Shown here piece by piece: positions 1,584-27,572 of a stretch of 44,423 bases of DNA; positions within the stretch are counted from its first letter, which is position 1, and each line of letters begins with the position of its first letter. Below the pieces are notes generated by a model. That model made no database searches. It saw only the letters and a program-made list of their open reading frames with translations, and was not told where the DNA came from. This stretch comes from Halococcus hamelinensis 100A6 (GTDB lineage: Archaea; Halobacteriota; Halobacteria; Halobacteriales; Halococcaceae): contig NZ_AOMB01000042.1 in NCBI RefSeq assembly GCF_000336675.1, positions 66,938 through 111,360 of the forward strand, written 5' to 3'. A program made the translations under genes and the position numbers.

Positions 1584-3077
1584 TCACAGCACCGTTTCTT
1601 CGAAAAATTCGCGGTCTTCTGGCTCGATTCCAAGAAGGAGCAGCACGAGAGCGAATGCTGCTGTCCCGACGATCCCACCACCAATCAGTAGCGGAATACC
1701 GGACACAGGAGATACATTTCCCCACCCGGTCAGAGCGCCCGCACAGGCGACCCCCGCAACGACTGGCTTCAGGAAATTGAGAGAGTACGGGAACAAACCC
1801 TCCGTGTACCAAATCTCCGCGACGTAGACGATGTTCGAGATGATCGAAACCGTGAGTGTAGCTGATGCCGCTCCGATGAGACCGAAGCTCGTGATGAAGA
1901 AGTAATTAAGAATTGCATTAACGATTCCTGCCCCCCAACGATTGGTTAGCATGAGGTACTGATGGTCAGTCATCATCAGCGTATAGCCGGTGGGACCAGT
2001 TGCGGCATTAGCGAAAAACGAGATGACGAACAACGAGAGAACTGCTGCTCCACTTGAAAAGCCACTGCCGAAGATCGAGAGCAGTTCACTCGAATAGAAG
2101 ACGAGTCCAACTGCAGCGAGAAGTGAAAATGTGAACGACCAACGGTTGACCTGTGTGAAAAGGGCATCGAGTTCCTCTATATTCCCATTACCATACATCT
2201 TGGCGGCGATGGGCGGGTAAATCGTGTTGAGTCCATTCGAAGGAAGGGTAATCAGTTGCGCAAGGATTGTAGATAGATTGTATATTCCAATGGCGCTCCC
2301 CGGAAGAAAGAATCCGACCATGAGAATATCCACTCTATTTTGGATTAATCGACCAGTATCGCTCATTGTCAGTGGTATCGAATAGTTGTAGAATCGCTTG
2401 AGTGATGGACGGGATCCACTGAGACTCGGTGAGAAATCTGTCATACGGACAAACAACCAGGTTGCAAAGGTGATCGTGAGAAGCGCTGCAATCACCTCTG
2501 CAACGACGACGTTGAAGAGCGTAGCACCGAGTGCTATGGCTCCGCTGAGCGTTACTATCCGGAAAGCGTAGCTACTGATTCCATTTGAGATGACTTGGAG
2601 CCCTGCCTGTTCCTGACTCCGAAAGACACTCGCAATACAACCTAGTACAGTTGTTATCGGCAGTGTGATCGCGAACAGTTGGAGAACTCGTACTAGACCG
2701 GCCTGCTTGTCCGTATAGTCAGCTATCAATGGAGCTGCAAAGTAAAGCGCCACCGCCAAAACAGAGGCTCCAACGATCGACGTGAGGATGGATAATCCTA
2801 TGACTCTGTTTTGTGCCGTTGAATCATCATCGAGGTCGGGAACGAACCGGATAATTGACTGGTCCGTTCCGAAGTTCGCGATCGTCTCACAAATATTGAT
2901 CAGCACCTTCCCGAATGAGTAGAGACCGTAGAGCGTTGGACCAAGCCCGGTAGTCAGGAGATACGTCGTGACGAACCCCAAACCCCGCATCGTGAGCATC
3001 CCACTCATGTTGGCTCCAGCACCGCGAATGATCGACTGGAGGGGTGAAGATGCCTCAGACTCGGCGTCATCAGACAT
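1584..3077 (-). CDS. Wzx-type polysaccharide / lipid-linked oligosaccharide flippase
   Basis: A polytopic membrane protein of about 497 residues with roughly 12-14 hydrophobic segments. The N-terminal motif (MLTMRGLGFVTTYLLTTGLGPTLYG region) is typical of the MATE/MurJ/Wzx superfamily. Such proteins flip lipid-linked saccharides across the membrane, as the AglR type does in haloarchaeal N-glycosylation. I chose the ATG at 3077 (MSDDAESEASS, an acidic cytoplasmic head) over an in-frame ATG at 3146, whose extra 23 residues are basic and unlike the family. Base composition is clearly more AT-rich than genes to the right, which suggests a transferred glycan-biosynthesis module. The sulfatase-like gene follows on the same strand. 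Confidence 0.85.
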   Translation of the reverse strand: MSDDAESEASSPLQSIIRGAGANMSGMLTMRGLGFVTTYLLTTGLGPTLYGLYSFGKVLINICETIANFGTDQSIIRFVPDLDDDSTAQNRVIGLSILTSIVGASVLAVALYFAAPLIADYTDKQAGLVRVLQLFAITLPITTVLGCIASVFRSQEQAGLQVISNGISSYAFRIVTLSGAIALGATLFNVVVAEVIAALLTITFATWLFVRMTDFSPSLSGSRPSLKRFYNYSIPLTMSDTGRLIQNRVDILMVGFFLPGSAIGIYNLSTILAQLITLPSNGLNTIYPPIAAKMYGNGNIEELDALFTQVNRWSFTFSLLAAVGLVFYSSELLSIFGSGFSSGAAVLSLFVISFFANAATGPTGYTLMMTDHQYLMLTNRWGAGIVNAILNYFFITSFGLIGAASATLTVSIISNIVYVAEIWYTEGLFPYSLNFLKPVVAGVACAGALTGWGNVSPVSGIPLLIGGGIVGTAAFALVLLLLGIEPEDREFFEETVL

Positions 3078-3223
3078 ATGGACTCTGCTTATCCTGCCCT
3101 CGTATGAGCGTTTCTTTCCGACGAGACCACATTCATGTGAGACCAAGGAGAACTATATCCAGCAAATCTGACCATCCTTACCAATGATTCGGAGCGATTT
3201 GGCCCCATATTGTGCCTATAACT

Positions 3224-3465
3224 ATGAGAGTGTCAACTCCCGACGCCAAGATATTTGAGGACGACGACCGCGACCGCCAGCTCGACGAGTTCGGTGCGAA
3301 CCACAGCTCGGTCACAGGTCCCTAAACCAGTTTTTCGCGACTGTTGGCACTGGGTGCGGACCTCGCGAGAGAATCGAGAGCGCGGACGCGTGGCTACTGC
3401 CGACGTTCATGATCGGAGATCTAATCGTGTCAGGTGAATCTCATACAGGTAGCTATCTACTCTAA
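3224..3465 (+). pseudogene. Decayed coding fragments, family unknown
   Basis: Two adjacent stretches look coding but lie in different frames. 3224-3325 (ATG to stop, 33 residues) is acidic with haloarchaeal codon use (FEDDDRDRQLDEFG). 3328-3465 continues in another frame with a hydrophobic, protein-like sequence (WLLPTFMIGDLIVSGES) and no start. The simplest reading is a gene broken by a frameshift and truncated upstream. I do not recognise the family. The rest of 3078-3601 shows nothing else I can support. Confidence 0.3.
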
Positions 3466-3601
3466 GACTGCTTCGTGAATTTGTTCGTAGTTAGCATACA
3501 CAGCAGGTCCGTTACCAGGATTGGTAGTCCAGCTATGTCTCGACGACATCAATCGACCGTATCCCGTGGATCCGGTAGATCGAGAGTACGGGTGACTCGC
3601 C

Positions 3602-3766
3602 CTATTTCCAGCGCATGTCGAGAAAGGCTCGATCTTCGTCGAACTCGCCTTTGCTCTCGGTCGGTCCGTGGTCCGACTCGTCAGAATCCGAGGGGAGCCC
3701 CCGACCGCACTCCATCCACCAGTAGCTATACTCGGAGAGCGCCGCACGGACATCTACGCGACACCC
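3602..3766 (-). pseudogene. 3' remnant of a gene beside tRNA-Met
   Basis: An open stretch of 54 codons, bounded upstream by an in-frame stop at 3767-3769, reads as a plausible acidic haloarchaeal C-terminus: ALSEYSYWWMECGRG, then a Ser/Asp/Glu-rich segment, ending FLDMRWK. No start codon lies in a sensible place, and the upstream part is absent. It begins only about 40 bp beyond the 3' end of tRNA-Met. That position fits the residue of an element or gene cut off by recombination at the tRNA. The family is not recognised. Confidence 0.35.
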
Positions 3767-3807
3767 TCAGACGTACCGCTGAGGGCATGTGGTTACCGAA
3801 TAGAGAG

Positions 3808-3929
3808 TGCCCGGGGTGGGCTCCGAACCCACGATCTCCGCATATCCCAGGTCCGAGGCGGCGGCCTCGGGGGAAACGCACTGTCAAACCCTATGAGTGC
3901 GGCGCTATGTCCAGCTAAGCCACCCGGGC
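3808..3929 (-). tRNA. tRNA-Met (CAU, elongator) with a 48-nt intron
   Basis: The minus strand folds as a tRNA: acceptor stem GCCCGGG (3929-3923) with CCCGGGC (3815-3809), discriminator A at 3808, and a D arm closed by GCT/AGC. The anticodon stem CCGCA/TGCGG and T arm GTGGG-TTCGGAG-CCCAC complete it. The anticodon loop reads CTCATA, then 48 extra nucleotides (3891-3844), then A. That places a canonical 37/38 intron directly 3' of the anticodon base 37. Without the intron the tRNA is 74 nt. Haloarchaeal elongator tRNA-Met genes are known to carry such an intron, removed by the splicing endonuclease at a bulge-helix-bulge. CCA is not encoded. A TTAATG box about 30 bp upstream (near 3957) may be its promoter. 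Confidence 0.93.
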
Positions 3930-3982
3930 TACTTCGGGGTATTCGACTCCCGGACATTAACCTTCTCATCTGGTCTCCGGCA

Positions 3983-3992
3983 GTCTTATGCC
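3983..3992 (+). promoter_or_regulatory. TATA-like box before the 4014 gene
   Basis: GTCTTATGCC lies 22-31 nt before the ATG at 4014, the expected spacing for a leaderless haloarchaeal transcript. It supports that start over in-frame codons further upstream, which overlap tRNA-Met. Confidence 0.4.
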
Positions 3993-4013
3993 GAACGATC
4001 ACACAGTCGTGGC

Positions 4014-5438
4014 ATGGACGTCCCGGGAATCGTCCGCGAGCGCCTCGGGGACGAGCGGCGGATGACCAGCGTGAACATCGGTGGCGAGGACCGGGTCTAC
4101 GTCACGCCGCCGCGGACGCTCGTCTACCACGCCTCCGGGCTCTTCAGCCGCGAGTCGATCGACGAGTACTCCCACGACGCACGCCGGTTCGACGTCTCGG
4201 CCAATCGTCGCGAGGCCACGTTCGCGTTCGAGTACGACGACGGGGTCGAGGCGTTCTCGATCCCGCGCGAGCGCATCGAGACCGTGCTCCCGCCGGTGCT
4301 CGCCGGCGTGCTCCGAACCACCGGACACATCGACGACGAGGAATCGGTCGAGGAGAGCTATCGCTTCGGCGAGCGGACGGTCGTCGTCACCGAGGCGCAG
4401 GTGCTGACGTCGGTGGGCGAGGCGGTCTGGGACCACGACCACGACAGCTACGCCTACGAGGAGATAACCGACCTCGCGTTCGACGATGGCGACCTCGTCG
4501 TCGTGGTCGACGGCCGGTCGCGCCGGATCGAACTCGACGACGACAGCGGGCGCGAAGCCTACGAGACGGTCGAGGCCGCACTCCTCGCCTACCACGGCGT
4601 CGGGAGCGTCGACGACATCGGCCGTCGGTCGCCCGAACGCGCTTCGAGCGAGGAATCGCGAGCCACGGGAGGCGTCTCGCCCGCCGAGGACCCGACCCGC
4701 GACTCGACGACCGATACGGCCCCGGCGACCGACACCGCGCCGCCGACCGAACCGGACGACCCGAGCCCGGAACCGCTCTTCGGACGCGCCGACGAACCGG
4801 CCGAACCCGCCGGACCGACCGAATCGACCGAACCCGCCGAATCGACCGAACCCGACGAAGCGACCGAACCGACGGATCGGCCGTCCGAGGACGTGGACCG
4901 GCCACTGGAAGCGGCCGACCAACGGAGTGGGAACGACGACGGGGACGAATCGACCGCGTCGGCGAACGACACCGACTCGGGTATCGTCTCCTCCCCACCG
5001 CCGAGTTCGCCCGCACCGGGTGGTCCGACCACCGGTCCGCTGATCCCGGACGCACCCGACTCCGGCACCTCGCGGCCCGAAGCGGGTGACGACCCGGCGA
5101 GTGACGGGGAAGCTCCACCGGCTGTCGATCCCGCGACGGAGACCGAGTCAACGGCGGGTAGCGAAACCACAGCAGATACCGAGTCCACAGCGGGTGGCGA
5201 CCAAGCAACGGATGTCGACTCCACGACGGACGCCGACCCCGCAACGAGCACCGACCCCGCAGTCGATGCCGAGCGACACGGGAGCGACATCGCTGCCGAA
5301 GCACCCGACCTCGGGGCCGAACTCGACGCGCTTCGCGAACAGGTCGACCGCCAGAGTCAGCTTCTCGAACGGAATCGGGAGCTCCTCGAACGCCTCGTCG
5401 AGACCCAGGAGTCGAAGCGCGTCAGCGACGACCGGTAA
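4014..5438 (+). CDS. Haloarchaeal protein with N-terminal globular domain, long acidic linker and C-terminal coiled coil
   Basis: A 474-residue protein. Residues 1-200 form a globular domain rich in beta strands (MDVPGIVRERLGDE; YVTPPRTLVYHASGLFS) that recalls a haloarchaea-only domain of unknown function (DUF7115, from memory). Residues about 200-430 are low-complexity Thr/Pro/Asp/Glu/Ser, with repeated TEP, TDP and TES units, and are probably disordered. The last 40 residues (ELDALREQVDRQSQLLERN) form a heptad coiled coil. The start at 4014 is preferred because upstream in-frame codons run into tRNA-Met. The gene converges on and overlaps the next by 17 bp. The architecture suggests an oligomeric scaffold, but the function is unknown. 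Confidence 0.8.
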   Translation: MDVPGIVRERLGDERRMTSVNIGGEDRVYVTPPRTLVYHASGLFSRESIDEYSHDARRFDVSANRREATFAFEYDDGVEAFSIPRERIETVLPPVLAGVLRTTGHIDDEESVEESYRFGERTVVVTEAQVLTSVGEAVWDHDHDSYAYEEITDLAFDDGDLVVVVDGRSRRIELDDDSGREAYETVEAALLAYHGVGSVDDIGRRSPERASSEESRATGGVSPAEDPTRDSTTDTAPATDTAPPTEPDDPSPEPLFGRADEPAEPAGPTESTEPAESTEPDEATEPTDRPSEDVDRPLEAADQRSGNDDGDESTASANDTDSGIVSSPPPSSPAPGGPTTGPLIPDAPDSGTSRPEAGDDPASDGEAPPAVDPATETESTAGSETTADTESTAGGDQATDVDSTTDADPATSTDPAVDAERHGSDIAAEAPDLGAELDALREQVDRQSQLLERNRELLERLVETQESKRVSDDR

Positions 5439-5778
5439 CTTTCTCGATACACGACGACCCGAAGGGTCCGAGCTCGCCGTTGTCGAACCGGATGAAGTGG
5501 CCCGTCGAGATCGACGCCCCGCACCGCCGGCAGGTGAACTCACCCTCCCGAACCACGACGTCGCTGCCGAAACTGACGTACTCGCCCGACCGAACCCGAA
5601 GGATCCCGTCCTCGCGGTCGACGACGCCACGCTTTTCGGCCTCGTCGAGGATCGTGCGGGTGGTTCGGGGTTCGGTCGTCACGGTTTCGAGCCGGTCGAG
5701 CGCCGTCGCGAGGTCGAGCCGACCGTCCTCGAGGTTCGCGAGGAGTTCGACACCGAGTTCGACCGTGTCGTCGCTCAC
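5422..5778 (-). CDS. Small haloarchaeal winged-helix-like protein with CxxC zinc motif (DUF5830-like)
   Basis: A 118-residue protein. The first about 75 residues are helical, with a pattern that could be a small helix-turn-helix (LDRLETVTTEPRTTRTILDE; AEKRGVVDRED). The C-terminus carries CRRCG and a later single Cys (FGSSCIEKVTGRR), with a conserved-looking GHFIRF segment. From memory this matches the haloarchaeal DUF5830 family. No function is established. It overlaps the 3' end of the opposite-strand gene by 17 bp. The start at 5778 gives MSDDTVEL, a typical haloarchaeal head. Confidence 0.75.
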   Translation of the reverse strand: MSDDTVELGVELLANLEDGRLDLATALDRLETVTTEPRTTRTILDEAEKRGVVDREDGILRVRSGEYVSFGSDVVVREGEFTCRRCGASISTGHFIRFDNGELGPFGSSCIEKVTGRR

Positions 5779-5846
5779 GCCGGCGTTCGGCGGCGGGTGG
5801 GCCTAAGCGTTCCGCGATGGGGAGCGGACCGAAGACCGGGACCCGA

Positions 5847-6602
5847 TCAGCCGATGGAGCCAGCCGCGGGCTCCGGGAGGTCACCGGGCAGGAAGTCGGG
5901 GTCGAGTCCCGAGACGCGACAGAGGTCCCAGAACGTCGCGAGGTTGCTCGTCACCGTCGGCACGTCGGCGATCTCGTCGACCGCCGCGAGCGTCGGGTAG
6001 TTCGTACAGGAGACGAACAGCGCGTCGACCGCCCCGCCCGACGCTTCGGTCGCGTCGAGCAACGCCGTCGCCTGTTCGAGCGCGTCCTCCGGCGTGAGTC
6101 GCCCGATGTCGGTGTTGGGCTCGATCCCGCGTCCGTCGAGCGCCACCACGTCGTAGCCGGCGTCGGTGAGGTAGTCGCGTTCGCGGTCGTTGAGTTCGTC
6201 GACGTAGGGCGTCGCCACGGCGATCCGGGTCGCATCCAGGGCGTCGAGCAGGCGCTGGACCGACAGCGCCGTCGCCACGGCGGGCGCGTCGGCGACCTCG
6301 GCGAGGTCGGCTTCGAGTTCCGTGTCGAAGCCGTGGCCGTGGAGGAGGCTCCCGGTGGTGCAGGCGTAGGCGACCGCGTCGACCTCCGCGTGGGCGAGCC
6401 GCTCCGCAGCCGCGACGGCGTCGGCCGCCATCGCGTCGAGCGCTTCGACTGTGACGTCCACGAGCCCCATCCGTGCGGCGTGGACCGACGCCGCAGCCGG
6501 CGTCCACGTGGCGAACTCGGGTTCCACAGTTGTATTCGAGGAGGGGACGACGACCCCGAGTCGCAGTCGGTCTCCGACGACGGTCGGGTCGGGGTGACTC
6601 AT
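5847..6602 (-). CDS. Maleate isomerase / Asp-Glu racemase family protein
   Basis: A 251-residue protein of the Asp/Glu racemase fold. The two catalytic cysteines are visible as C81 (AYACTTGS) and C199 (FVSCTNYPT). Their spacing of 118 equals that of characterised maleate cis-trans isomerases, and PSSNTTVEPEF near residue 20 is the typical N-terminal loop. The family uses a cysteine to isomerise maleate, decarboxylate arylmalonates or racemise hydantoins and amino acids. ATG at 6602 overlaps the HyuB stop as ATGA, so it is translated with the hydantoinase genes. In that setting it could be a hydantoin racemase or act on an unsaturated diacid. Sequence alone does not decide between these. Confidence 0.85.
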   Translation of the reverse strand: MSHPDPTVVGDRLRLGVVVPSSNTTVEPEFATWTPAAASVHAARMGLVDVTVEALDAMAADAVAAAERLAHAEVDAVAYACTTGSLLHGHGFDTELEADLAEVADAPAVATALSVQRLLDALDATRIAVATPYVDELNDRERDYLTDAGYDVVALDGRGIEPNTDIGRLTPEDALEQATALLDATEASGGAVDALFVSCTNYPTLAAVDEIADVPTVTSNLATFWDLCRVSGLDPDFLPGDLPEPAAGSIG

Positions 6603-8293
6603 TCGCTCACCTTCCCGTCGGCACGGTCGCGCTCGCGGGCCGCGGGGTCGCGGTCCGCGGGGTCGCCGTGGCCGCCGCCACCCGGTGTGAGCAGGCTGAC
6701 GGTCGTGCCGGCATCGACGTCGACGGAGGTCTTCGCGTCGACCGCTTCGCCGTCGATGAGATTGCACCCGAGCGCCCCGTCCTCGCCGCCGGCGAGTCCG
6801 GCGGGCGGAACCCGACGACGTTCGGTCAGGAGCGAGACCGTCGCGTCCCTCTCGACCGTGAGGGAGCGTTCGAGGCCGAGGCCACCCCAAAATCGACCGT
6901 CGCCGCCGCTGTCGGGGCGAAAGCCGTACCGCTCGACGCGGAGCGGGTAGGCTGTTTCGAGCGCCTCGACGGGTGTGTTGAGCGTGTTCGTCATCCCGAC
7001 CTGAACGCCGTCCATCCCGTCTTTTCCGGATCGTGCGCCGAACCCGCCCGCGACGGTCTCGTAGTAGGTGAATGAGCCGCTTCGGCTCCCGACGATGAGG
7101 TTGTTCATCGTACCCTGGCTCGCGGCGGGAACCCGGTCGGGCACCGCCTCGGCGAACGCCGCGAGCACGACGTCGGTGACCCGCTGGCTGGTCTCGACGT
7201 TGCCGCCGACGACCGCCGCGGGCAGGCTCGGGTCGAGCAGCGACCCGTCGGGGATCTCGACCGTCACCGGGTCGTAACAGCCCTGATTCGGCGGTATCTC
7301 CGGGTCGGTCACACAGCGCACGACGAAGTAGACGGCGCTCTTGGCGACCGCGACCGGCGCGTTGAGGTTTCCGGGGACCTGCTCGGCGGTCCCCTCGAAG
7401 TCGACGGTGAGACGGTCGCCGTCGACGGTGACGGTCGCCTCGATGGGGATCGAGACGTCCTCCGGGTCGGTTCCCGAGCGGTGTTCGAGAACGCCGTCGC
7501 CCTCCAGCACGTCGCTCGCGGTGTAGGTGCCGTCCGGCAGCGACTCGATCTCGGTCTCGATCCGGGCGCGCGAGTAGTCGACGACGGCGTCGAAGGCGTC
7601 GAGCACGAGGTCGCCGTGGTCGTCGAGGAGGTCCCCCAGGCGCTCCTCGGCCCGGTCGTTGGCCGCGATCTGGGCTCTGAGGTCCGCACGGCGTTCGTCC
7701 GGCGTACGGACGTTGGCGAGCACCAGCGCCATCACGTCCTCGTTCACCGTCCCGCGCTCGCGACCCGGCTCGGAACCGTCCGAACCCTCCCCGCCGACGA
7801 CCAGTCGAACCGGGGGCAACCGGAGCCCCTCCTGGTAGATCTCGCGCGCACCCGCCGGCATACTACCCGGCGTCATCCCGCCGACATCGGCGTGGTGGGC
7901 ACGCGAGACGGCGTAGCCCAGCACCTCGCCACGCGGTGCGAGCGGCGAGACGAGGGTCACATCCGGAAGGTGGGTGCCGCCGTCGAAGGGGTCGTTGAGG
8001 ACGAACACGTCGCCCGGTTTCGGGTCGCGGTCGCGGACCGCGTCGACGGCCTCGGGCATCGCGCCGAGATGGACGGGGATGTGTTCGGCCTGGGCGACCA
8101 TCCGGCCGTCGGCGTCGAAGAGCGCGGTCGAACAGTCCTGGCGCTCCTTGATGTTGGGCGAGTACGACCCGGTGATGAGCACCTGTCCCATCTCCTCGGC
8201 GACGCTCTCGAACTGGTTGCGGAGGATCTCGAGGGTGACGGCGTCGATCCCGTGGTCGCCGTCCGTGTCGGAAGTCGAGGGGTCGGGGCTCAC
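6599..8293 (-). CDS. hyuB: Hydantoinase / 5-oxoprolinase B subunit
   Basis: A 564-residue HyuB-family protein that starts [16 protein letters not shown] and contains [29 protein letters not shown] and [15 protein letters not shown], all hallmark segments. With HyuA it forms the ATP-dependent enzyme that opens hydantoin, N-methylhydantoin or 5-oxoproline rings. The start is GTG at 8293, which overlaps the HyuA stop in a GTGA junction. A much longer upstream open frame is Arg-rich antisense-like translation of hyuA and was discarded. The stop overlaps the ATG of the isomerase gene. Length is normal for the family (about 550-590). Confidence 0.9.
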
Positions 8294-10299
8294 TCCGATC
8301 CCTCCGTGAGCACCGCGGTGCCGTCGGGGTCGACACGTGCTTCCCAGTTCGGGGGAAGGACGACCGTGCTCTCGTCCTGTTCGAGCACGGCGGGGCCCGC
8401 CACCGTCTCGCCCGGCGGCAGGCGTTCGCGGTCGTAGATCTTCGTTCGCCGTGCGCCGTCGGCGAAGTGGGCTTCGCGTTCGTCGACCAGCGCGTCGCCG
8501 GGGGCGTCGTAGGCGACGGCCGGGTCGGCGCGTTCGACGGCCGCCTCGACCCGGAGGTTCACGAGGTCCACGGTCTCGTCCATCCGGTAGCCGTAGGTCG
8601 TCTCGTGGGCGGCGTGGAACCGACGGGCCACCGCCTCGGGGTCGAACGGCCGGTCGGCGGACACGGTCAGTTCGAAGCTCTGGCCGGCGTATCGGAGGTC
8701 GGCGCGGCGGGTGAGGACGGCCGAGGCGGGGTCGCTGCAGTCCTCGCGCACGGCGGCTTCGAGGTCTTCGTAGGCCGTGTCGACTGCCGAAACGTCGGCC
8801 GCCGCGAGCGACTCCCGGTGGGTGCGAACGGCGTCGTGTTTCTCGTCGGCCGCGAGCAGGCCGAACGCCGAGAGGACGCCGCAGGCCCGCGGGACGACCA
8901 CCGTCGAGATGTCGAGGCGGTCGGCGAGCGCCGCGGCGTGCATCGGGCCCGCGCCGCCGAAGGCCACGAGGCCGAAATTTCGGGGATCGTGGCCGCGTTC
9001 GAGCGTGACCGCGCGGATGGCCCGGGTCATGGTCGCGTTGGCGACGCGGTAGACCCCGCGGGCGGCGTCGAGCGGGCCATCTAGATCCGCTTCGTCGGCG
9101 AGGTCGGCGAGCGCGTCGCGGGCGGCCTCGACGTCGATTTCGAGCTCGCCGCCGAGGGTCGTGCTCGACCCGATGAAGCCGAGGACGACGTTGGCGTCGG
9201 TCACGGTGGGGTCGGTCCCACCCTGGCCGTAGCACACGGGACCGGGATCCGCGCCGGCCGACTCGGGGCCGACCCGGAGCGCGCCGCCGGCGTCGACCCA
9301 GCCGATGCTCCCGCCCCCCGCGCCGACGGTGGTGACGTCGACCATCGGGGTGCTGACGGGATAGTCGCCGATGACCGCGTCGGTCGTACGCTCGACCTCG
9401 CCCTCGCGGACGAGGCTCACGTCGCTCGACGTGCCGCCCATGTCGAAGGTGACGAGCCCGGCGTGGTCGCGGTCGGTCGCGCCGCCGACGCTGGCGCGCG
9501 CGCCGACGACCCCGGCAGCGGGGCCGGAGAGACAGGTCCGCACGGCGTGCTCCCTGACCGTCACGGCGTCGGTGATGCCGCCGTTGGCCTGCATCACGGT
9601 CGGTTCCGGCACGCCCGCCTCCGCCGCGCGCTCGACCAGCCGGCCGATGTAGGCGTCGATGGCGGGGGTGACGTAGGCGTCGGCGACGGTGGTCGACGTC
9701 CGCTCGTACTCGCGGAACTCGGCCAGGACCTCGTGGGAAGTCGAGATGGGGACGTCGAGTTCGGTTTCGAGCACGTCGGCGACGGTCGTTTCGTTGTCGG
9801 GGTGGGCGTAGGCGTGGAGGAGACAGACCGCGACCGCCTCCGCATCGCTGTCCTCGATCCGACGGGCGACGTTGCGGACGGAATCCGGGTCGACCTTCCG
9901 CTCGATCCCGTCCGTCGTCGCGCGCTCGTCGACCGTAAACCGGCGGCGACGCGGCACCAGCGGGGCGGGTTTCTCGGCGTCGAGGTCGTAGAGCGAGGGT
10001 CTGTTCTGCCGACCGATCTCGAGCACGTCGCGGAACCCCTCGGTCGTCACGAGCGCCGTCCGCGCGCCATTCCCTTCGAGCAGCGCGTTGACCGAGACGG
10101 TCATCGCGTGGGCGAAGTCGTCGATCCCGTCGGGGTCGACGGCCGCCCGCTCGCAGGCCTTCTCGATGCCGTCCATCACGCCGACGCTCTGGTCGCCCGT
10201 GCTCGGGACCTTCGCGGTGACGAGGTCGTCCCCACGGAGGAGCACGACGTCGGTGAACGTCCCGCCGACGTCGACGCCGACGGTGGTTTTCCCACTCAC
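8290..10299 (-). CDS. hyuA: Hydantoinase / 5-oxoprolinase A subunit
   Basis: A 669-residue HyuA-family protein. The N-terminus TTVGVDVGGTFTDVVLL is the actin-like ATPase phosphate-1 loop. Further along are TFDMGGTSSDVSLV, VTTVGAGGGSIGWVD, and LVAFGGAGPMHAAALA near residue 440, all characteristic. It supplies the ATP-binding half of the heteromeric amide-ring hydrolase with HyuB. The start is GTG at 10299, immediately after the stop of the transporter gene, so the four genes are almost certainly one transcript. The exact substrate (hydantoin, N-methylhydantoin, oxoproline or another lactam) cannot be read from the sequence. Confidence 0.9.
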   Translation of the reverse strand: MSGKTTVGVDVGGTFTDVVLLRGDDLVTAKVPSTGDQSVGVMDGIEKACERAAVDPDGIDDFAHAMTVSVNALLEGNGARTALVTTEGFRDVLEIGRQNRPSLYDLDAEKPAPLVPRRRRFTVDERATTDGIERKVDPDSVRNVARRIEDSDAEAVAVCLLHAYAHPDNETTVADVLETELDVPISTSHEVLAEFREYERTSTTVADAYVTPAIDAYIGRLVERAAEAGVPEPTVMQANGGITDAVTVREHAVRTCLSGPAAGVVGARASVGGATDRDHAGLVTFDMGGTSSDVSLVREGEVERTTDAVIGDYPVSTPMVDVTTVGAGGGSIGWVDAGGALRVGPESAGADPGPVCYGQGGTDPTVTDANVVLGFIGSSTTLGGELEIDVEAARDALADLADEADLDGPLDAARGVYRVANATMTRAIRAVTLERGHDPRNFGLVAFGGAGPMHAAALADRLDISTVVVPRACGVLSAFGLLAADEKHDAVRTHRESLAAADVSAVDTAYEDLEAAVREDCSDPASAVLTRRADLRYAGQSFELTVSADRPFDPEAVARRFHAAHETTYGYRMDETVDLVNLRVEAAVERADPAVAYDAPGDALVDEREAHFADGARRTKIYDRERLPPGETVAGPAVLEQDESTVVLPPNWEARVDPDGTAVLTEGSE

Positions 10300-11508
10300 T
10301 CAGATCACCCCCACGATCGAGAGCAGGCTGCGGACCCCGAGCCAGACGACGACCAGGGTCACCAGCGCGCCGAGGGCGTTCTGCACGGTCGTGTTGACGT
10401 ACTCGCCCAGCGTGTCGCGGTCGTTCATCACGAGGATGAGGAAGAGCGCGATGATAGGAAGGAGGATACCGTTCGCGACCTGGGCGAAGAGGATGGCCTC
10501 GACGGGGCTGTAATCCAGCGCCGAGAAGACGACGCCGACGCCGAGGATCGCGACCCAGACCGCCCGGAACCGTGTGGACTTGAGGTCGCCCTCCCAGCCG
10601 AGCGCGCCGGCGGTGGCGTACGCGCCGGCCAGCGGGGCCGTCGTCGCGCTGGTGAAGCCCGCGGCGAAGAGGCCGATACTGAAGAACACCTGCGCGTAGG
10701 TGCCCGCGACGGGTTCGAGCTGTTCGGCCATCCGACCGACGTCGGAGATCTCGGTCCCGACGGGGAAGACCGCCGCGGCGGTCACGAGGATCGAGAGCGT
10801 GATCAGCCCGCCGACCACGATCGAGAGGATAGTATCGGTACGGCACTCGGTGAGGTCCTCCGGGCCGCTCCAGCGCTCCTGGACGCTGCTGGCGTGGAGG
10901 AAGAGGTTGTAGCTCACGACGGTCGTCCCGATGAGGCCGGTGATGAGGAAGGCCGACCCCTGTGGGACCGAGGGGACGAACCCGGCCGCTATCGCGCCGA
11001 GGTCCGGGCCGATGAGGATCGCGTCGATGAGAAAGGAGACCCCCATGACCGCCACGAGCGCGACGAGTGCCCGCTCGATGAGTTCGTATCGACCGGTCCA
11101 GAGCAACGCGGCGGCGACGAGCCCCATGAGCGGCCCCCATATCGACGCGCTGACGCCGGTCACGGTTTCGAGCCCGGCTGCACCGCCGAGGATGTTTCCG
11201 GTCTCGTAGGCCGCGGTGCCGATGCCGATGGCGCTGACGACGAGCGCGACGCTCGCGTAGCGCAGCGCCGGTGAATCGAAGCGGTTCCGGAGCGCCTCGC
11301 CGAGCCCTTCGCGCGAGACCAGTCCCAGCCGGGCGCTCATCTCCTGGAGGACGATGGTGGCGACAACGGAGAAGACGATCGTCCAGATCAGCGCATAGCC
11401 GTAGGCCGCGCCCGTCACGCTCGCGGTCGTCACGGTGCCGGGCCCGATGAAGGCCGCCGCGACCATCGCGCCCGGTCCGACCGAGCGGATCCGGTCGACC
11501 AGCGTCAC
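10300..11508 (-). CDS. Nramp-fold transporter lacking canonical metal ligands
   Basis: A membrane protein of about 402 residues with 11 or so helices and Nramp (SLC11) family features. The TM1 loop, DPGN in metal-transporting members, is GPGT here (residues 22-25). The TM6 motif, MPHN in the family, is VSYN (198-201), although flanking residues align well (GTTVVSYNLFLH). The Asp, Asn and Met that bind Mn/Fe are therefore all absent. Its stop abuts hyuA, so an organic substrate of the pathway or another cation is more likely than Mn or Fe. I chose GTG at 11508 because a TTATCC box near 11555 would start transcripts inside the longer frame, which begins with ATG at 11583 and has a head unlike the family. 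Confidence 0.82.
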   Translation of the reverse strand: MTLVDRIRSVGPGAMVAAAFIGPGTVTTASVTGAAYGYALIWTIVFSVVATIVLQEMSARLGLVSREGLGEALRNRFDSPALRYASVALVVSAIGIGTAAYETGNILGGAAGLETVTGVSASIWGPLMGLVAAALLWTGRYELIERALVALVAVMGVSFLIDAILIGPDLGAIAAGFVPSVPQGSAFLITGLIGTTVVSYNLFLHASSVQERWSGPEDLTECRTDTILSIVVGGLITLSILVTAAAVFPVGTEISDVGRMAEQLEPVAGTYAQVFFSIGLFAAGFTSATTAPLAGAYATAGALGWEGDLKSTRFRAVWVAILGVGVVFSALDYSPVEAILFAQVANGILLPIIALFLILVMNDRDTLGEYVNTTVQNALGALVTLVVVWLGVRSLLSIVGVI

Positions 11509-11677
11509 TGTGTACCCCGTTCGTGTGTCATGCTCACACGAGGCTCGCTCGTGGGGATAAGGGTTGTTATGAGGGGTGTGCATCGACGACGTGTCCCCTA
11601 TGATCGGATGTGAAGCGAGACGTGCGGACCGTCCAGTTCGAACGGTCTCGTGGGGAGTCGTCCGGGAAGGTGCACCG

Positions 11678-12235
11678 TCAGGACGATCCGACCGAGCGCT
11701 CCGTGATGAGCACCTTCGAGACGCTCTCCTCGATGTCGAGTTCGACGGGGAGGTCGCGGACGCTTCGCTCGATGAAGCGCATCATGAACCACCGGAGCGA
11801 CGCGGAGGGGAAGACGACGTGGTAGGTGTCGCCCTCGGCGGCGCGAACCGAGACGAACCCACAGAACGAGAGCCAGTCCAGGAGGTCGCCGACGGTCTCG
11901 AACCGCTCGGCGTACTCGCGGGCGTGGTAGTCGGCGACGGTGTCGGCGGCCTCGACGAAGGCCGGGTCCGGCTCCCCCGACCCGTCCTCGACGTACTCGA
12001 GAAAGCAGTGCAGGAAGTCCACGTCGAGCAGGACGTGTTCGCCGCTCGCGAGCATCCGGTGGTAGGCCGCGAGGTTCGGCCCGGCGTCGGTCGTCGCGGC
12101 GTCGACGTTCGCGGCGTAGAAGTCGAGCGCTCTGCGGACCACCTCGCTCCGGCCCGCCCCGGTGTGGTCGAGGAGGGTGTCGAGCGCCGCCGCTGCGTCG
12201 TCGTCGAGCGAGACGGTCACTCGGTCGGTCGGCAT
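11678..12235 (-). CDS. Ribbon-helix-helix transcriptional regulator
   Basis: A 185-residue protein. Residues 1-46 (RVTVSLDDDAAAALDTLLDHTGAGRSEVVRRAL) form a CopG/MetJ-type ribbon-helix-helix DNA-binding domain. The remaining about 140 residues are a helical domain with FVEAADTVADYHAREYAERF and a Phe/Trp/Met-rich end (LRWFMMRFIE). I recall this layout from haloarchaeal RHH regulators with a C-terminal sensor or oligomer domain. It sits 169 bp upstream of the transporter on the same strand, so it may regulate, and possibly lead, the hydantoinase operon. That is inferred from position only. The VTT gene diverges from it. Confidence 0.8.
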   Translation of the reverse strand: MPTDRVTVSLDDDAAAALDTLLDHTGAGRSEVVRRALDFYAANVDAATTDAGPNLAAYHRMLASGEHVLLDVDFLHCFLEYVEDGSGEPDPAFVEAADTVADYHAREYAERFETVGDLLDWLSFCGFVSVRAAEGDTYHVVFPSASLRWFMMRFIERSVRDLPVELDIEESVSKVLITERSVGSS

Positions 12236-24394: not shown

Positions 24395-26095
24395 ATGAAC
24401 ACAGTCGAACGCTGGAAACAGGAGAAGCATCCGCTCGACGTCATCGAGGACGTCCGGGAGTACGCCGAAGAGGGGCTCTCGTTTGACGAGATCGAAGAAC
24501 GCGCTGGCGACGGCGAGTGGGAACGGCTCAAGTGGGCCGGGATGTACAGCCACGGGGTACAGGACGGCTACTTCATGATGCGGACGAAGGTCCCCGGCGG
24601 CTATCTCACGCCCGAACAGGGTGAGGTCGTCGGGGAGGTCGCCGACGAGTTCGCCACCGCGCCCGAGGAGTACGGCGGCGACCAACAGAACGACCTCTGG
24701 GGCGACGCCTACGTCGACATCACGACGCGCCAGGACTTCCAGGAACACTGGATCGAGGTCGAGGACGTCCCCGAGATCTGGAATCGCTACGACGACGTGG
24801 GGTTGACCACGATCCAGGGCTGTGGCGACTCCGCACGCAACGTCCTGGGCTGCCCGGCGGCGGGCCTCGACCACCACGAGGTCTTCGACGCCCAGCCCGT
24901 GATCGACGCGGTCTCGGATTTCTTCACCGAGAATCGGGAGTACGGCAACCTCCCCCGGAAGTTCAAGATCACCATCACCGGCTGCCGCGAGGACTGCGCC
25001 CAGTCCCAGATCAACGACGTCGGGATGACGCCGGCACGCCGCGAGGTCGACGGCCAGTACCAGTACGGCTTCCACGTCCGCGTCGGCGGCGGGCTCTCGG
25101 ACGGCCCGCGGATGGGCTCGGAGCTCGACGTGTTCGTCCCGCCGGAGGACGCCGTCGAGTTCACCCGCGCCGTCGCCCAGACGTTCAAGGAGCTCGGCAA
25201 CCGGTTCAACCGCGGCGTCTGCCGGATGCGCTATCTCGTCCAGCAGATGGGGCCCGAGAAGTTCGAGGAAGCGGTTCGCGACCGATGTACGGTCGACCTC
25301 GATACTCGCGGCGAGGACCTCACGGAAGGCTACACGGGCGACCACGTCGGCGTCCACAAACAGCGCGACGAGGACCTCCGATACGTCGGTTTCAACGTCG
25401 TCGCGGGTCGGATGGGCGGCGACGAGTTCGCCGAGGCCGCCCGCGCGGCGGAGAAACACGGTACCGACGAGGCGAGCCTCCGCCTCGCGACGGATCAGAA
25501 CTTCCTGATCACCCACATCCCCGAGGAGAACGTCGACGACCTCCTCGCGGAGCCGTTCGCGGAGAACTACCAGCCGGATCCCGGTCCGTTCGCGCGCGGC
25601 GCGGTCGGGTGTACGGGGAGCGAGTTCTGTAACTACGGGATCATCGAGACCAAGAATCGCGTGAAGCGGTGGGCCCGCGAACTCGACGACCGTATCGATA
25701 CCCCCGACGACCTCGAAGTCGTCCGGATGCACATGTCGGGCTGTTCGGCCTCCTGCGCCCAGCCCCAGATCGCCGACATCGGCTTCCGCGGCGAGACGGT
25801 CAAGACGGATATCGACGACGCGGACGACGAGAACGACGCGATCGTCGAGGGGATGGACTTCGGCCTCGGCGGTTCGCTGGGTGCCGACAACGAGTTCCTC
25901 GACTGGGTCGAGCACGCGGTGCCCGCGACCGCGGTGATCCCGGCGCTCGAAAAGCTGTTCACGGCCTACACCGACGAGCGCGAGGAGGGCGAGCGCTTCT
26001 ACGAGTGGTGTCGCCGTGCCGGCAACGACGAACTCCGGGCCGTGATGCAACAGGCGGACGCCAACGTCTCGGGAGGTGTCGCGGCGGATGACTGA
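24395..26095 (+). CDS. Siroheme/[4Fe-4S] nitrite or sulfite reductase
   Basis: A 566-residue protein with two tandem ferredoxin-like/siroheme repeats. The siroheme-[4Fe-4S] ligands are seen in CTGSEFC (C-x5-C, about residue 407) and CSASC (C-x3-C, about residue 450). TITGCREDCAQSQINDVG and MHMSGCSASCAQPQIADIG are the paired repeats. It performs a six-electron reduction of nitrite to ammonia or sulfite to sulfide in the cytoplasm. Haloarchaeal members are often labelled NirA. No nitrate reductase or transporter lies nearby, and the following gene overlaps it by 8 bp and encodes an F420/ferredoxin module, so sulfite is at least as likely. No gene symbol is given for this reason. Confidence 0.88.
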   Translation: MNTVERWKQEKHPLDVIEDVREYAEEGLSFDEIEERAGDGEWERLKWAGMYSHGVQDGYFMMRTKVPGGYLTPEQGEVVGEVADEFATAPEEYGGDQQNDLWGDAYVDITTRQDFQEHWIEVEDVPEIWNRYDDVGLTTIQGCGDSARNVLGCPAAGLDHHEVFDAQPVIDAVSDFFTENREYGNLPRKFKITITGCREDCAQSQINDVGMTPARREVDGQYQYGFHVRVGGGLSDGPRMGSELDVFVPPEDAVEFTRAVAQTFKELGNRFNRGVCRMRYLVQQMGPEKFEEAVRDRCTVDLDTRGEDLTEGYTGDHVGVHKQRDEDLRYVGFNVVAGRMGGDEFAEAARAAEKHGTDEASLRLATDQNFLITHIPEENVDDLLAEPFAENYQPDPGPFARGAVGCTGSEFCNYGIIETKNRVKRWARELDDRIDTPDDLEVVRMHMSGCSASCAQPQIADIGFRGETVKTDIDDADDENDAIVEGMDFGLGGSLGADNEFLDWVEHAVPATAVIPALEKLFTAYTDEREEGERFYEWCRRAGNDELRAVMQQADANVSGGVAADD

Positions 26096-27572
26096 CCGCG
26101 ACCCCCTCCCCGGCGTGCCGAGGACGAGCGACGACGGCGACGGCGACGAGTGCTGTACCGACGGGCAGTGTACCTGCGGCGGGCAGGAGTCGGAACCCCA
26201 GGCCATCGCCGACGGCGGCATGAAGTCGGCGAACGTCGACGAGAACGGCAGCCTCGGCGACGTCCAGTTCACCGAACCCGCGGCCGAGGGCACGAGTCAG
26301 AAGATCGAGAACGGCGACTCGCCGGACACCCGTGTCGGGGTCCCGGATGGTGTGGACCTCGACACGCCGGGCTACTCGATCCGCTCGGAGATGAACGACA
26401 TCGAGGAGCCAGACGACAAGACCTGGTTCATGGAGCTCGACACCGCCGTGATCGACGACGGCCGGTGTATCCAGTGTGGGACCTGTGTGGCCTCCTGTCC
26501 CTCGGACTCGATCGGGATCGGCGACGACGGGCTGCCCGAACTGGTGAAGATGTGTACGGGCTGTTCGCTGTGCTGGGACTTCTGTCCCCGCGGCGGCCTG
26601 CGCTACGAGCGCCAGTGGAAGATCACCGGCGGCGAGGACAACGTGAAGGGCGCGGGCGACCCGATCACCGAGTTCTCGGCGAAGGTCGAGGAGGACTGGC
26701 GCGGGAACGCCCAGGACGGCGGCGTGGTCTCCTCGCTCCTGATCCACCTGCTGGAGGACGGCGAGATCGACGGCGCGCTGATCGCCACCGAGGGCGAGGA
26801 CGAGGCCTGGAAGGCCGAGAGCTTCCTCGCCACGACCCCCGAGGACGTCATCGAGAACGCGGGCAGCTTCTACAACCAGACGATGGCGCTCGGGAACCTC
26901 GACCTCGAACAGTGGGAGCACAAACTCCCCGACAAGGACCCCGAGGACCTCTCGCTCGCGATGGTCGGCACGCCCTGTGAGATCGAGGGCATCCGCGCGC
27001 TCCAGGACTTCTCGTGGGACTACCAGTCCCAGAACGAGGGCGTCCGCGCGGTGGATTACACCATCGCGCTGATGTGTACGAAGAACTTCAACTACGAGCG
27101 ACTCATCGGGGAGCAGATCGAGGAGAAACGCGGGATATCGCCCGACGAGATCGGCAAGCTCGACATCCTCCACGGGAACATGTACGTCTACGGCCACGAC
27201 GGCGAGGAGCTCCTCACCGAGGACATCGAGAACTTCCACGACGCCGCCCTGAAGGGCTGTGACGAGTGTGCGGACTTCACGGGCTACGCCGCCGACATCA
27301 CCGTGGGTTCGGTGGGGTCGAGCGACGAGTTCTCCAGCGTGATCGTCCGGACCGAACAGGGTCTCGACGCGTGGGAGCACACCGAGGCCGACCTCACGTA
27401 CCACGACCTCGAGGACCGCGGCGCGGTCGGCGGGCTCCAGTCCTGGGACAAGAAGAAGGCGTTCAACTCCCTCAAACGGCCGTTCGACCCGGACGCGCCG
27501 CGGTTCATCGAGTACACCGAACACGCCGAGAACTACGGCACCGTGCTCAACCCCCACGAAGCCGACCACTGA
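26088..27572 (+). CDS. F420-hydrogenase/dehydrogenase beta-subunit-like iron-sulfur protein
   Basis: A 494-residue protein. Residues 1-100 are acidic with a Cys cluster (CCTDGQCTCGG). Near residues 125-165 are two 4Fe-4S motifs (CIQCGTCVASCP and CTGCSLCWDFCP). The rest is an FrhB/FdhB domain, with VGTPCEIEGIRALQ and GCDECADFTGYAADITVGS. FrhB-type domains bind FAD and exchange hydride with F420H2, passing electrons to iron-sulfur clusters. The gene starts inside the reductase gene (8-bp overlap), so it is presumably the electron-input partner. In methanogens the same two modules are fused in the F420-dependent sulfite reductase Fsr. Confidence 0.85.
   Translation: MTDRDPLPGVPRTSDDGDGDECCTDGQCTCGGQESEPQAIADGGMKSANVDENGSLGDVQFTEPAAEGTSQKIENGDSPDTRVGVPDGVDLDTPGYSIRSEMNDIEEPDDKTWFMELDTAVIDDGRCIQCGTCVASCPSDSIGIGDDGLPELVKMCTGCSLCWDFCPRGGLRYERQWKITGGEDNVKGAGDPITEFSAKVEEDWRGNAQDGGVVSSLLIHLLEDGEIDGALIATEGEDEAWKAESFLATTPEDVIENAGSFYNQTMALGNLDLEQWEHKLPDKDPEDLSLAMVGTPCEIEGIRALQDFSWDYQSQNEGVRAVDYTIALMCTKNFNYERLIGEQIEEKRGISPDEIGKLDILHGNMYVYGHDGEELLTEDIENFHDAALKGCDECADFTGYAADITVGSVGSSDEFSSVIVRTEQGLDAWEHTEADLTYHDLEDRGAVGGLQSWDKKKAFNSLKRPFDPDAPRFIEYTEHAENYGTVLNPHEADH

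Follow-up and report, generated by a model that had tools for sequence, protein, structure and literature searches.

A haloarchaeal Nramp-related carrier encoded beside hydantoinase genes as a candidate importer of 5-oxoproline or a related cyclic amide

In Halococcus hamelinensis 100A6 a tightly packed operon of four genes encodes an Nramp-related carrier, HyuA, HyuB and an enzyme of the Amdase family, and we consider it probable that the substrate of this carrier is not a metal but 5-oxoproline (pyroglutamate), or a close cyclic amide, taken up and then opened by HyuAB. The reading draws on the fold, the fixed motifs of the pocket, the operon and its conservation, and the alternation of PxpABC and HyuAB as gene partners. 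The dependence of PxpT and YcsG on 5-oxoproline is taken from the literature and concerns another, distant clade. In the proposed mechanism, the protein would be a secondary carrier of the Nramp/LeuT fold in which the central site accommodates a small cyclic amide and no longer a metal ion. Its task would be the uptake of 5-oxoproline or a close relative, where we infer both the substrate and the direction of transport. The unwound GPGT of TM1 could hold the carboxylate by main-chain groups, as APC amino acid carriers do through their GxG. HyuA would then activate the ring amide with ATP and HyuB, with its bound metal, would open the ring, giving glutamate in the case of 5-oxoproline. The enzyme of the Amdase family may serve to convert one enantiomer or isomer into another, and the operon is probably under the control of a CopG-type protein.

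The carrier gene and its operon

The window, that is the whole stretch of 44,423 nucleotides that was analysed, encodes the carrier (402 aa) at 10300..11508 on the minus strand, with a GTG start. The protein matches the Nramp profile PF01566 at 334.9 bits (E 7.5e-100, profile positions 1-356 of 357), above the curated cut-off of 29.8 bits. In the alignment its TM1 reads AAFIGPGTVTT at the place of the canonical DPGN and its TM6 reads IGTTVVSYNLFLH against IGATVMPH, so that neither of the motifs by which canonical importers are recognised, DPGN in TM1 and MPH in TM6, is present. This bears out the first-pass annotation, which had described GPGT in place of DPGN and VSYN in place of MPHN. At the sites of the Deinococcus radiodurans Nramp, D56 is replaced by G, N59 by T, M230 by V and H232 by Y, in the numbering of that protein. 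Part of this numbering is found in the available text of PMC12873925.

In the genome of H. hamelinensis itself, seven genes account for eight PF01566 matches, since one of them is split into two matches. One of these genes is a canonical DPGN/MPH paralogue, and the carrier is therefore not the only candidate manganese importer of the cell. The presence of this paralogue, together with the fixed substitutions described below, led us to reject the reading as a plain divergent MntH. The paralogues L003 (C31) and L006 (C22) display GSGSVF in TM1 and LWPN in TM6, the former resembling the GSG found in amino acid carriers of the APC type.

The stop codon of the carrier gene (10302-10300) is followed with 0 bp between by the GTG of hyuA at 10299, confirming that the two genes abut. 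hyuA (8290..10299, minus strand, 669 aa; Hydantoinase_A 304.6 bits, Hydant_A_N 167.5 bits) encodes the ATP-binding subunit of an ATP-dependent lactamase/hydantoinase/oxoprolinase and overlaps by 4 bp (GTGA) with hyuB (6599..8293, minus strand, GTG start; Hydantoinase_B 662.6 bits), the metal-binding hydrolytic subunit, which is the only HyuB found in the genome. A second overlap of 4 bp (ATGA) joins hyuB to the gene of the Amdase / Asp-Glu racemase superfamily enzyme (5847..6602, minus strand; PF17645 113 bits). Upstream of the carrier, at a distance of 169 bp, lies the gene of a CopG-type ribbon-helix-helix protein (11678..12235, minus strand; RHH_1 35.4 bits), which probably regulates the operon.

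By eye, with residues after PMC8453981, HyuA keeps the ATP motifs DVGGTFTD and FDMGGTSSD, and HyuB keeps the metal-ligand motifs including AHH. In the available text of that paper, activation of the lactam with ATP by HyuA and its hydrolysis by HyuB are proposed for caprolactamase and 5-oxoprolinase, and HyuB-type subunits are said to require a metal. The window's HyuA and HyuB are members of the same group of ATP-dependent lactamases as caprolactamase CapAB, HyuAB, N-methylhydantoinase and eukaryotic 5-oxoprolinase, but they score far under the caprolactamase equivalog cut-offs. The closest solved chains to HyuA are N-methylhydantoinase 7hk5 and caprolactamase 6yra; HyuAB as a whole is nearest among solved proteins to the same two enzymes, as is the fused HyuAB of the relative L068. 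Racemases and isomerases of the Amdase superfamily have two cysteines, and the Amdase-family enzyme carries both (YACTTGS and VSCTNYPT). With maleate isomerase 2xec and arylmalonate decarboxylase as its nearest solved chains, it is probably a racemase or an isomerase.

An orthologue of the carrier at 55% identity or more is found in 56 of the 194 genomes of the class. Downstream of the carrier, the longest frame is hyuA in 27 of the 29 other haloarchaeal orthologue loci, the remaining two (L011 and L026) having a shadow frame and being unscored for hyuA; its position beside the carrier is therefore more than chance. All 26 orthologues of these 29 loci that are readable in frame show GPGT and V[GS]YN, while L028, L034 and L037, left out of this motif count by a stop before the real start, all show hyuA. 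Furthermore, among 20 loci with longer flanks, some of which share genomes with the loci fetched first, all 20 keep the motifs, 18 have hyuA and hyuB downstream, 16 have the Amdase gene and 17 have a CopG homologue upstream. The two that lack hyuAB are the most divergent copies (55 and 56% identical). Haloferax mediterranei also carries the operon, and in such operon-bearing haloarchaea the proposed role of the carrier is directly testable.

Fold and pocket residues of the wider clade

The structure prediction that the first-pass annotation had proposed as a check was obtained with AlphaFold2 from the window protein and proteins of the relatives found in the scan described below, and gave a LeuT/Nramp fold (mean pLDDT 91.1, pTM 0.90). 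In the model TM1 breaks at about residues 21-22 and TM6 at about 198, as in LeuT-fold carriers, and we assign this predicted fold with confidence. The best fold match is DraNramp 6d91 (Z 48.6, rmsd 2.3, 381 aligned residues), and other matches include EleNRMT 7qia (Z 46), BfraNramp 10ky (Z 44.9), the Bacillus subtilis YcsG model 9a52 (Z 40, 17% identity) and, at Z 29 to 30, the amino acid carriers AdiC and ApcT. The fold by itself shows no function, and these searches are no evidence that other folds are absent. The canonical MntH/Nramp proteins DraNramp and BfraNramp have the fold in common with the carrier, at 26-28% identity in the fold alignments, but the carrier is without their DPGN and MPH metal ligands. 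A sodium-site-like A-x-x-T/S-S in TM8 of the carrier was also considered and was uninformative, similar serines being present there in canonical Nramps.

A small alignment, used as query against named genomes of bacteria and archaea, gave at least 477 relatives in a scan limited to 595 pattern matches. The best 80 of these 477 were kept, and all 80 show GPGT together with a V-x-Y-N in TM6; the peptide patterns of the scan preselected part of TM1, not TM6. In an alignment of 50 sequences (the window protein and 49 of the 80 scan loci, at 44-80% identity), each of the 50 rows has the same residues G22, P23, G24, T25, T195, T196, V198, Y200 and N201, those of TM1 being partly preselected. All four residues of the TM1/TM6 metal site are thus replaced and fixed, which extends the loss of metal-ligand side chains that had been noticed in the single sequence to the clade. 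The GPGT and VxYN motifs are fixed in this clade and have not decayed. TM3 is likewise constant, with G97, G104 and G108 in all 50 sequences, an aromatic residue at 101 in 50 (Y in 39, F in 11), N105 in 49 and G112 in 47. The proline before the TM6 tyrosine, at residue 199, is kept in 42 of 50; the five haloarchaeal rows have Gly or Ser at this site, and another three rows have Thr.

These residues place the carrier in a class that is already known, under the names of Cellier's orphan outgroup of Slc11 and of Nramp-related proteins. The outgroup, which belongs to PF01566, is described in the available text of PMC10606218 and PMC9606685 by a Y-xxx-N with invariant glycines in TM3 (GYGNGG) and by the TM6 changes A to T, M to V and H to Y. 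The carrier matches both the TM3 signature and the T, V and Y of TM6 and is of the same kind. A 2026 preprint (PMC12873925) likewise describes, in its available part, Nramp-related proteins without DPGN and MPH. The available text of the two orphan outgroup papers gives the group no function and no link to 5-oxoproline or hydantoin. The new element here is the operon and partner evidence, which gives the orphan class a testable substrate. In the literature searched, no link was found for Nramp and hydantoinase together, nor was anything found on a carrier-hyu link in that on haloarchaea and hydantoinase.

Of the proteins with a solved structure, EleNRMT is one of the closest in sequence (E 8e-40) as well as in fold and, like the carrier, has the Nramp fold without the canonical metal motif, which would be in line with an NRMT-type magnesium carrier. 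However, EleNRMT keeps the TM1 aspartate, and NRMTs are described with a DxxG-TxxA/T motif (PMC8806188), against a GxxT-TxxV that is fixed in 50 of 50 sequences here. Moreover, nothing in the operon points to magnesium. We regard magnesium transport of this type as very improbable.

Gene partners and the candidate substrate

Among the best 80 of the 477 relatives, 21 lie beside pxpABC genes (pxpA, pxpB or pxpC nearby) and 12 have hyuAB or a fused HyuAB as neighbour; no relative has both partners, and 47 are without either. Niehaus 2017 is reportedly the founding paper on PxpABC. Pfam searches on representative neighbours gave LamB_YcsF, CT_C_D, CT_A_B, Hydantoinase_A and B, and D-Glu_cyclase. 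By comparison, 0 of 13 control loci of other Nramp paralogues, surveyed over flanks of 1.5 kb, have pxp, hyuAB or D-Glu_cyclase genes. The D-Glu_cyclase gene (ycsI), which in B. subtilis is part of the pxp operon, adjoins the carrier in 4 of the 21 pxp-linked and 2 of the 12 hyu-linked loci. The first-pass annotation held that its reading would fall if close relatives with the same motifs transported Mn, Fe or Mg and were not linked to hyuAB. The second part holds for 68 of the 80 relatives (21 linked to pxpABC, 47 to neither enzyme); as to the first, no report of metal transport by the GPGT clade was found in the literature searched.

The 47 relatives linked to neither enzyme weaken the best explanation. 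Of these, 32 are found in Alteromonadales, where most copies are unlinked. In 15 genomes with an unlinked carrier (15 of the 47 such loci being examined), PxpA is present in 12 and HyuB in the other 3; PxpA thus occurs in 12 of 15 against 5 of 14 controls (Fisher p 0.025, with rows that are not independent). As support this presence is weak, both families being common.

A phylogeny read together with the gene neighbours, another check named in advance, revealed the alternation of the two partners. The careful tree comprises 63 rows of the GPGT clade picked from the scan, the class and Bacilli loci; the rows of YcsG, of MntH and of nine further Nramp paralogues that figure in a wider tree are left out of it. 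On it the hyu label requires 4 changes (bootstrap range 4-4; the starred branches force 4), and the linked rows require at least 3 swaps between hyu and pxp partners. All haloarchaeal rows fall into a single clade (100/100), which groups with Bacillota whose copies are pxp-linked (95/96). These swaps indicate that one carrier lineage was repeatedly coupled to either of two unrelated, ATP-dependent lactam-opening enzymes, and PxpABC and HyuAB would most simply alternate as partners because the imported ring that they open is the same. Uptake of an organic ring compound by an Nramp relative, as first supposed for this gene, would fit the loss of ligands across the clade, the PxpABC and HyuAB partners and, by analogy, the 5-oxoproline requirement of PxpT and YcsG. 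Moreover, a hydantoin is a less likely ring compound than 5-oxoproline or a close cyclic amide, because no homologue of the HyuC-like N-carbamoylase was found beside any hyuAB-linked copy of the carrier; hydantoin as the main substrate was lowered for this reason.

It is also conceivable, though we hold it to be unlikely, that the carrier imports another cyclic amide, for instance a hydantoin (5-substituted or N-methyl), a ring resembling creatinine or succinimide, or 5-oxo-D-proline, which HyuAB would open and the Amdase-family enzyme would racemise or isomerise. The proximity of HyuAB to N-methylhydantoinase and caprolactamase, and of the Amdase-family enzyme to maleate isomerase, favour such a substrate and weaken the 5-oxoproline reading. 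That reading is also weakened by the fact that PxpT and YcsG belong to a distant clade. A divergent orthologue (L203, in G077, reverse complement 3045-7205), which by eye adjoins an Amdase gene and a creatininase-like gene, is without hyuAB and has an N-carbamoylase-like (HyuC-like) gene on the other strand, points the same way, and the creatininase-like neighbour counts against 5-oxoproline. Furthermore, the genome of H. hamelinensis has a separate pxpB-pxpC-pxpA set with an APC-type permease at L125 (C33, about 5517-11416; by eye except pxpA). Among the haloarchaea, PxpA is found in 11 of the 56 genomes that have the carrier and in 13 of the remaining 138 (Fisher p 0.058), so that a strict replacement of PxpABC by HyuAB at the level of the genome was not found. 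Since pxpABC is present separately and PxpA is not rarer in the carrier-bearing genomes, HyuAB may here serve another lactam. On the other hand, 21 of the 80 relatives adjoin pxpABC, a dedicated 5-oxoprolinase, the gene of the D-glutamate cyclase YcsI adjoins hyuAB-linked copies and N-carbamoylase was not found beside these. At L125 a biotin carboxylase-like gene, by eye, is convergent with the pxp genes, and the site resembles another 5-oxoproline locus, with a carrier of a different type.

For PxpT itself, the available text of PMC13274462 reports that Corynebacterium glutamicum pxpT mutants grow normally on glucose and do not grow on 5-oxoproline, that PxpT is of the Nramp family by TCDB and 50% identical to YcsG, and that ycsG is required for the use of 5-oxoproline in B. 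subtilis. A class-wide search for the PxpT operon round an actinobacterium returned no Corynebacterium operon, and GPGT copies in 2 of 296 genomes. The YcsG orthologues were picked by the exact order pxpA-ycsG-ycsI-pxpB-pxpC in Bacilli (4 loci; 8 YcsG-type genes in 9 stretches). They read IGPGF in TM1 and VGGY in TM6 and are also without DPGN and MPH. Like the carrier, YcsG and PxpT have the Nramp-family fold, and the orthologues have in common with it the GPG of TM1, the G...F..GN..G...G pattern of TM3 and the TM6 tyrosine. They differ in having GPGF and VGGY (letters from the YcsG orthologues, not from PxpT) where the carrier has GPGT and VxYN, and their genes adjoin pxpABC while the window copy adjoins hyuAB. 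In pairwise matches the YcsG-type proteins are 22-28% identical to the GPGT clade, and in the wider tree, with its long branches, their rows form a starred clade of their own apart from the GPGT rows, the two clades not being joined. An assignment as YcsG orthologue, the first guess from the pxpABC-linked GPGT copies, was set aside on these grounds.

YcsG is also at the centre of a dispute that bears on whether the carrier could import a divalent metal through other ligands (the TM3 glutamate, main-chain groups, Tyr and Asn) in order to supply HyuB or PxpA. YcsG (MntG) is reported as a Mn importer, its overexpression raising cell Mn and synthetic defects being described (PMC10448178, available text), and this counts against the 5-oxoproline reading; the MumT of Acinetobacter, encoded in a urea carboxylase operon, is likewise reported to affect Mn as an importer (PMC5050338, available text). 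The Nramp fold and family, together with the metal requirement of HyuB-type subunits (PMC8453981), are consistent with such a role. So is the acidic residue E102 of TM3 (in YETGN), absent from the first-pass annotation and, to judge from the alignment, mostly kept across the relatives (E in 40, Q in 9 and A in 1 of 50), although the register against TM3 of canonical Nramps can move by three residues. Against this, all four side chains of the TM1/TM6 metal site are replaced by different, fixed residues, the genome has its canonical DPGN/MPH paralogue, and the C. glutamicum pxpT mutants fail on 5-oxoproline and not on glucose (PMC13274462). We therefore judge metal import by the carrier to be rather improbable. 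The lack of DPGN and MPH in the YcsG orthologues bears on the Mn claim and does not settle it.

With the import of 5-oxoproline or a close cyclic amide as the preferred reading, a broader one can be put forward tentatively, somewhat short of an even chance: the whole Slc11 orphan outgroup and YcsG/PxpT might be carriers of 5-oxoproline or related cyclic amides with a shared pocket (TM1 GPG, TM3 G[YF]GNGG, TM6 Tyr). If so, the branch closest to the metal-importing Nramps would transport an organic anion, metal and organic-substrate binding would have been exchanged inside one fold family, and the label "Nramp family divalent metal transporter" would be wrong in at least hundreds of genomes. This offers a hypothesis of function for a large branch next to the metal-importing Nramps, with at least 477 relatives in a limited scan, and a reason to doubt, in a dispute live in print, that YcsG-type proteins are primarily Mn importers. 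PxpABC and HyuAB, unrelated enzymes, seem interchangeable behind one carrier, which leads to a predicted substrate for an archaeal "hydantoinase" operon.

The region upstream of the carrier

The alignment of 28 upstream stretches (the window and 27 haloarchaeal orthologues), inspected by eye, displays TTCATAC boxes at a spacing of about 10 bp, together with GTATGA in inverted orientation and TCTTAACAACCCTTTT, which is promoter-like. In the window, a degenerate copy of the TTCATAC repeat boxes, a possible operator, is seen at 11597..11614, and the promoter-like stretch around CATAACAACCCTTAT, conserved as TCTTAACAACCCTTTT, at 11557..11572, both on the minus strand. The TTCATAC boxes and inverted GTATGA upstream of the carrier suggest a putative operator of the CopG-type protein. 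Since the conserved promoter-like stretch sits between the GTG at 11508 and the upstream ATG at 11583, the GTG, already taken as the start in the first-pass annotation, is most likely the true start of the carrier. Elsewhere in the window, at 24395-27572, a nitrite/sulfite reductase-like gene overlaps, by eye, a gene resembling an FrhB/ferredoxin-type subunit.
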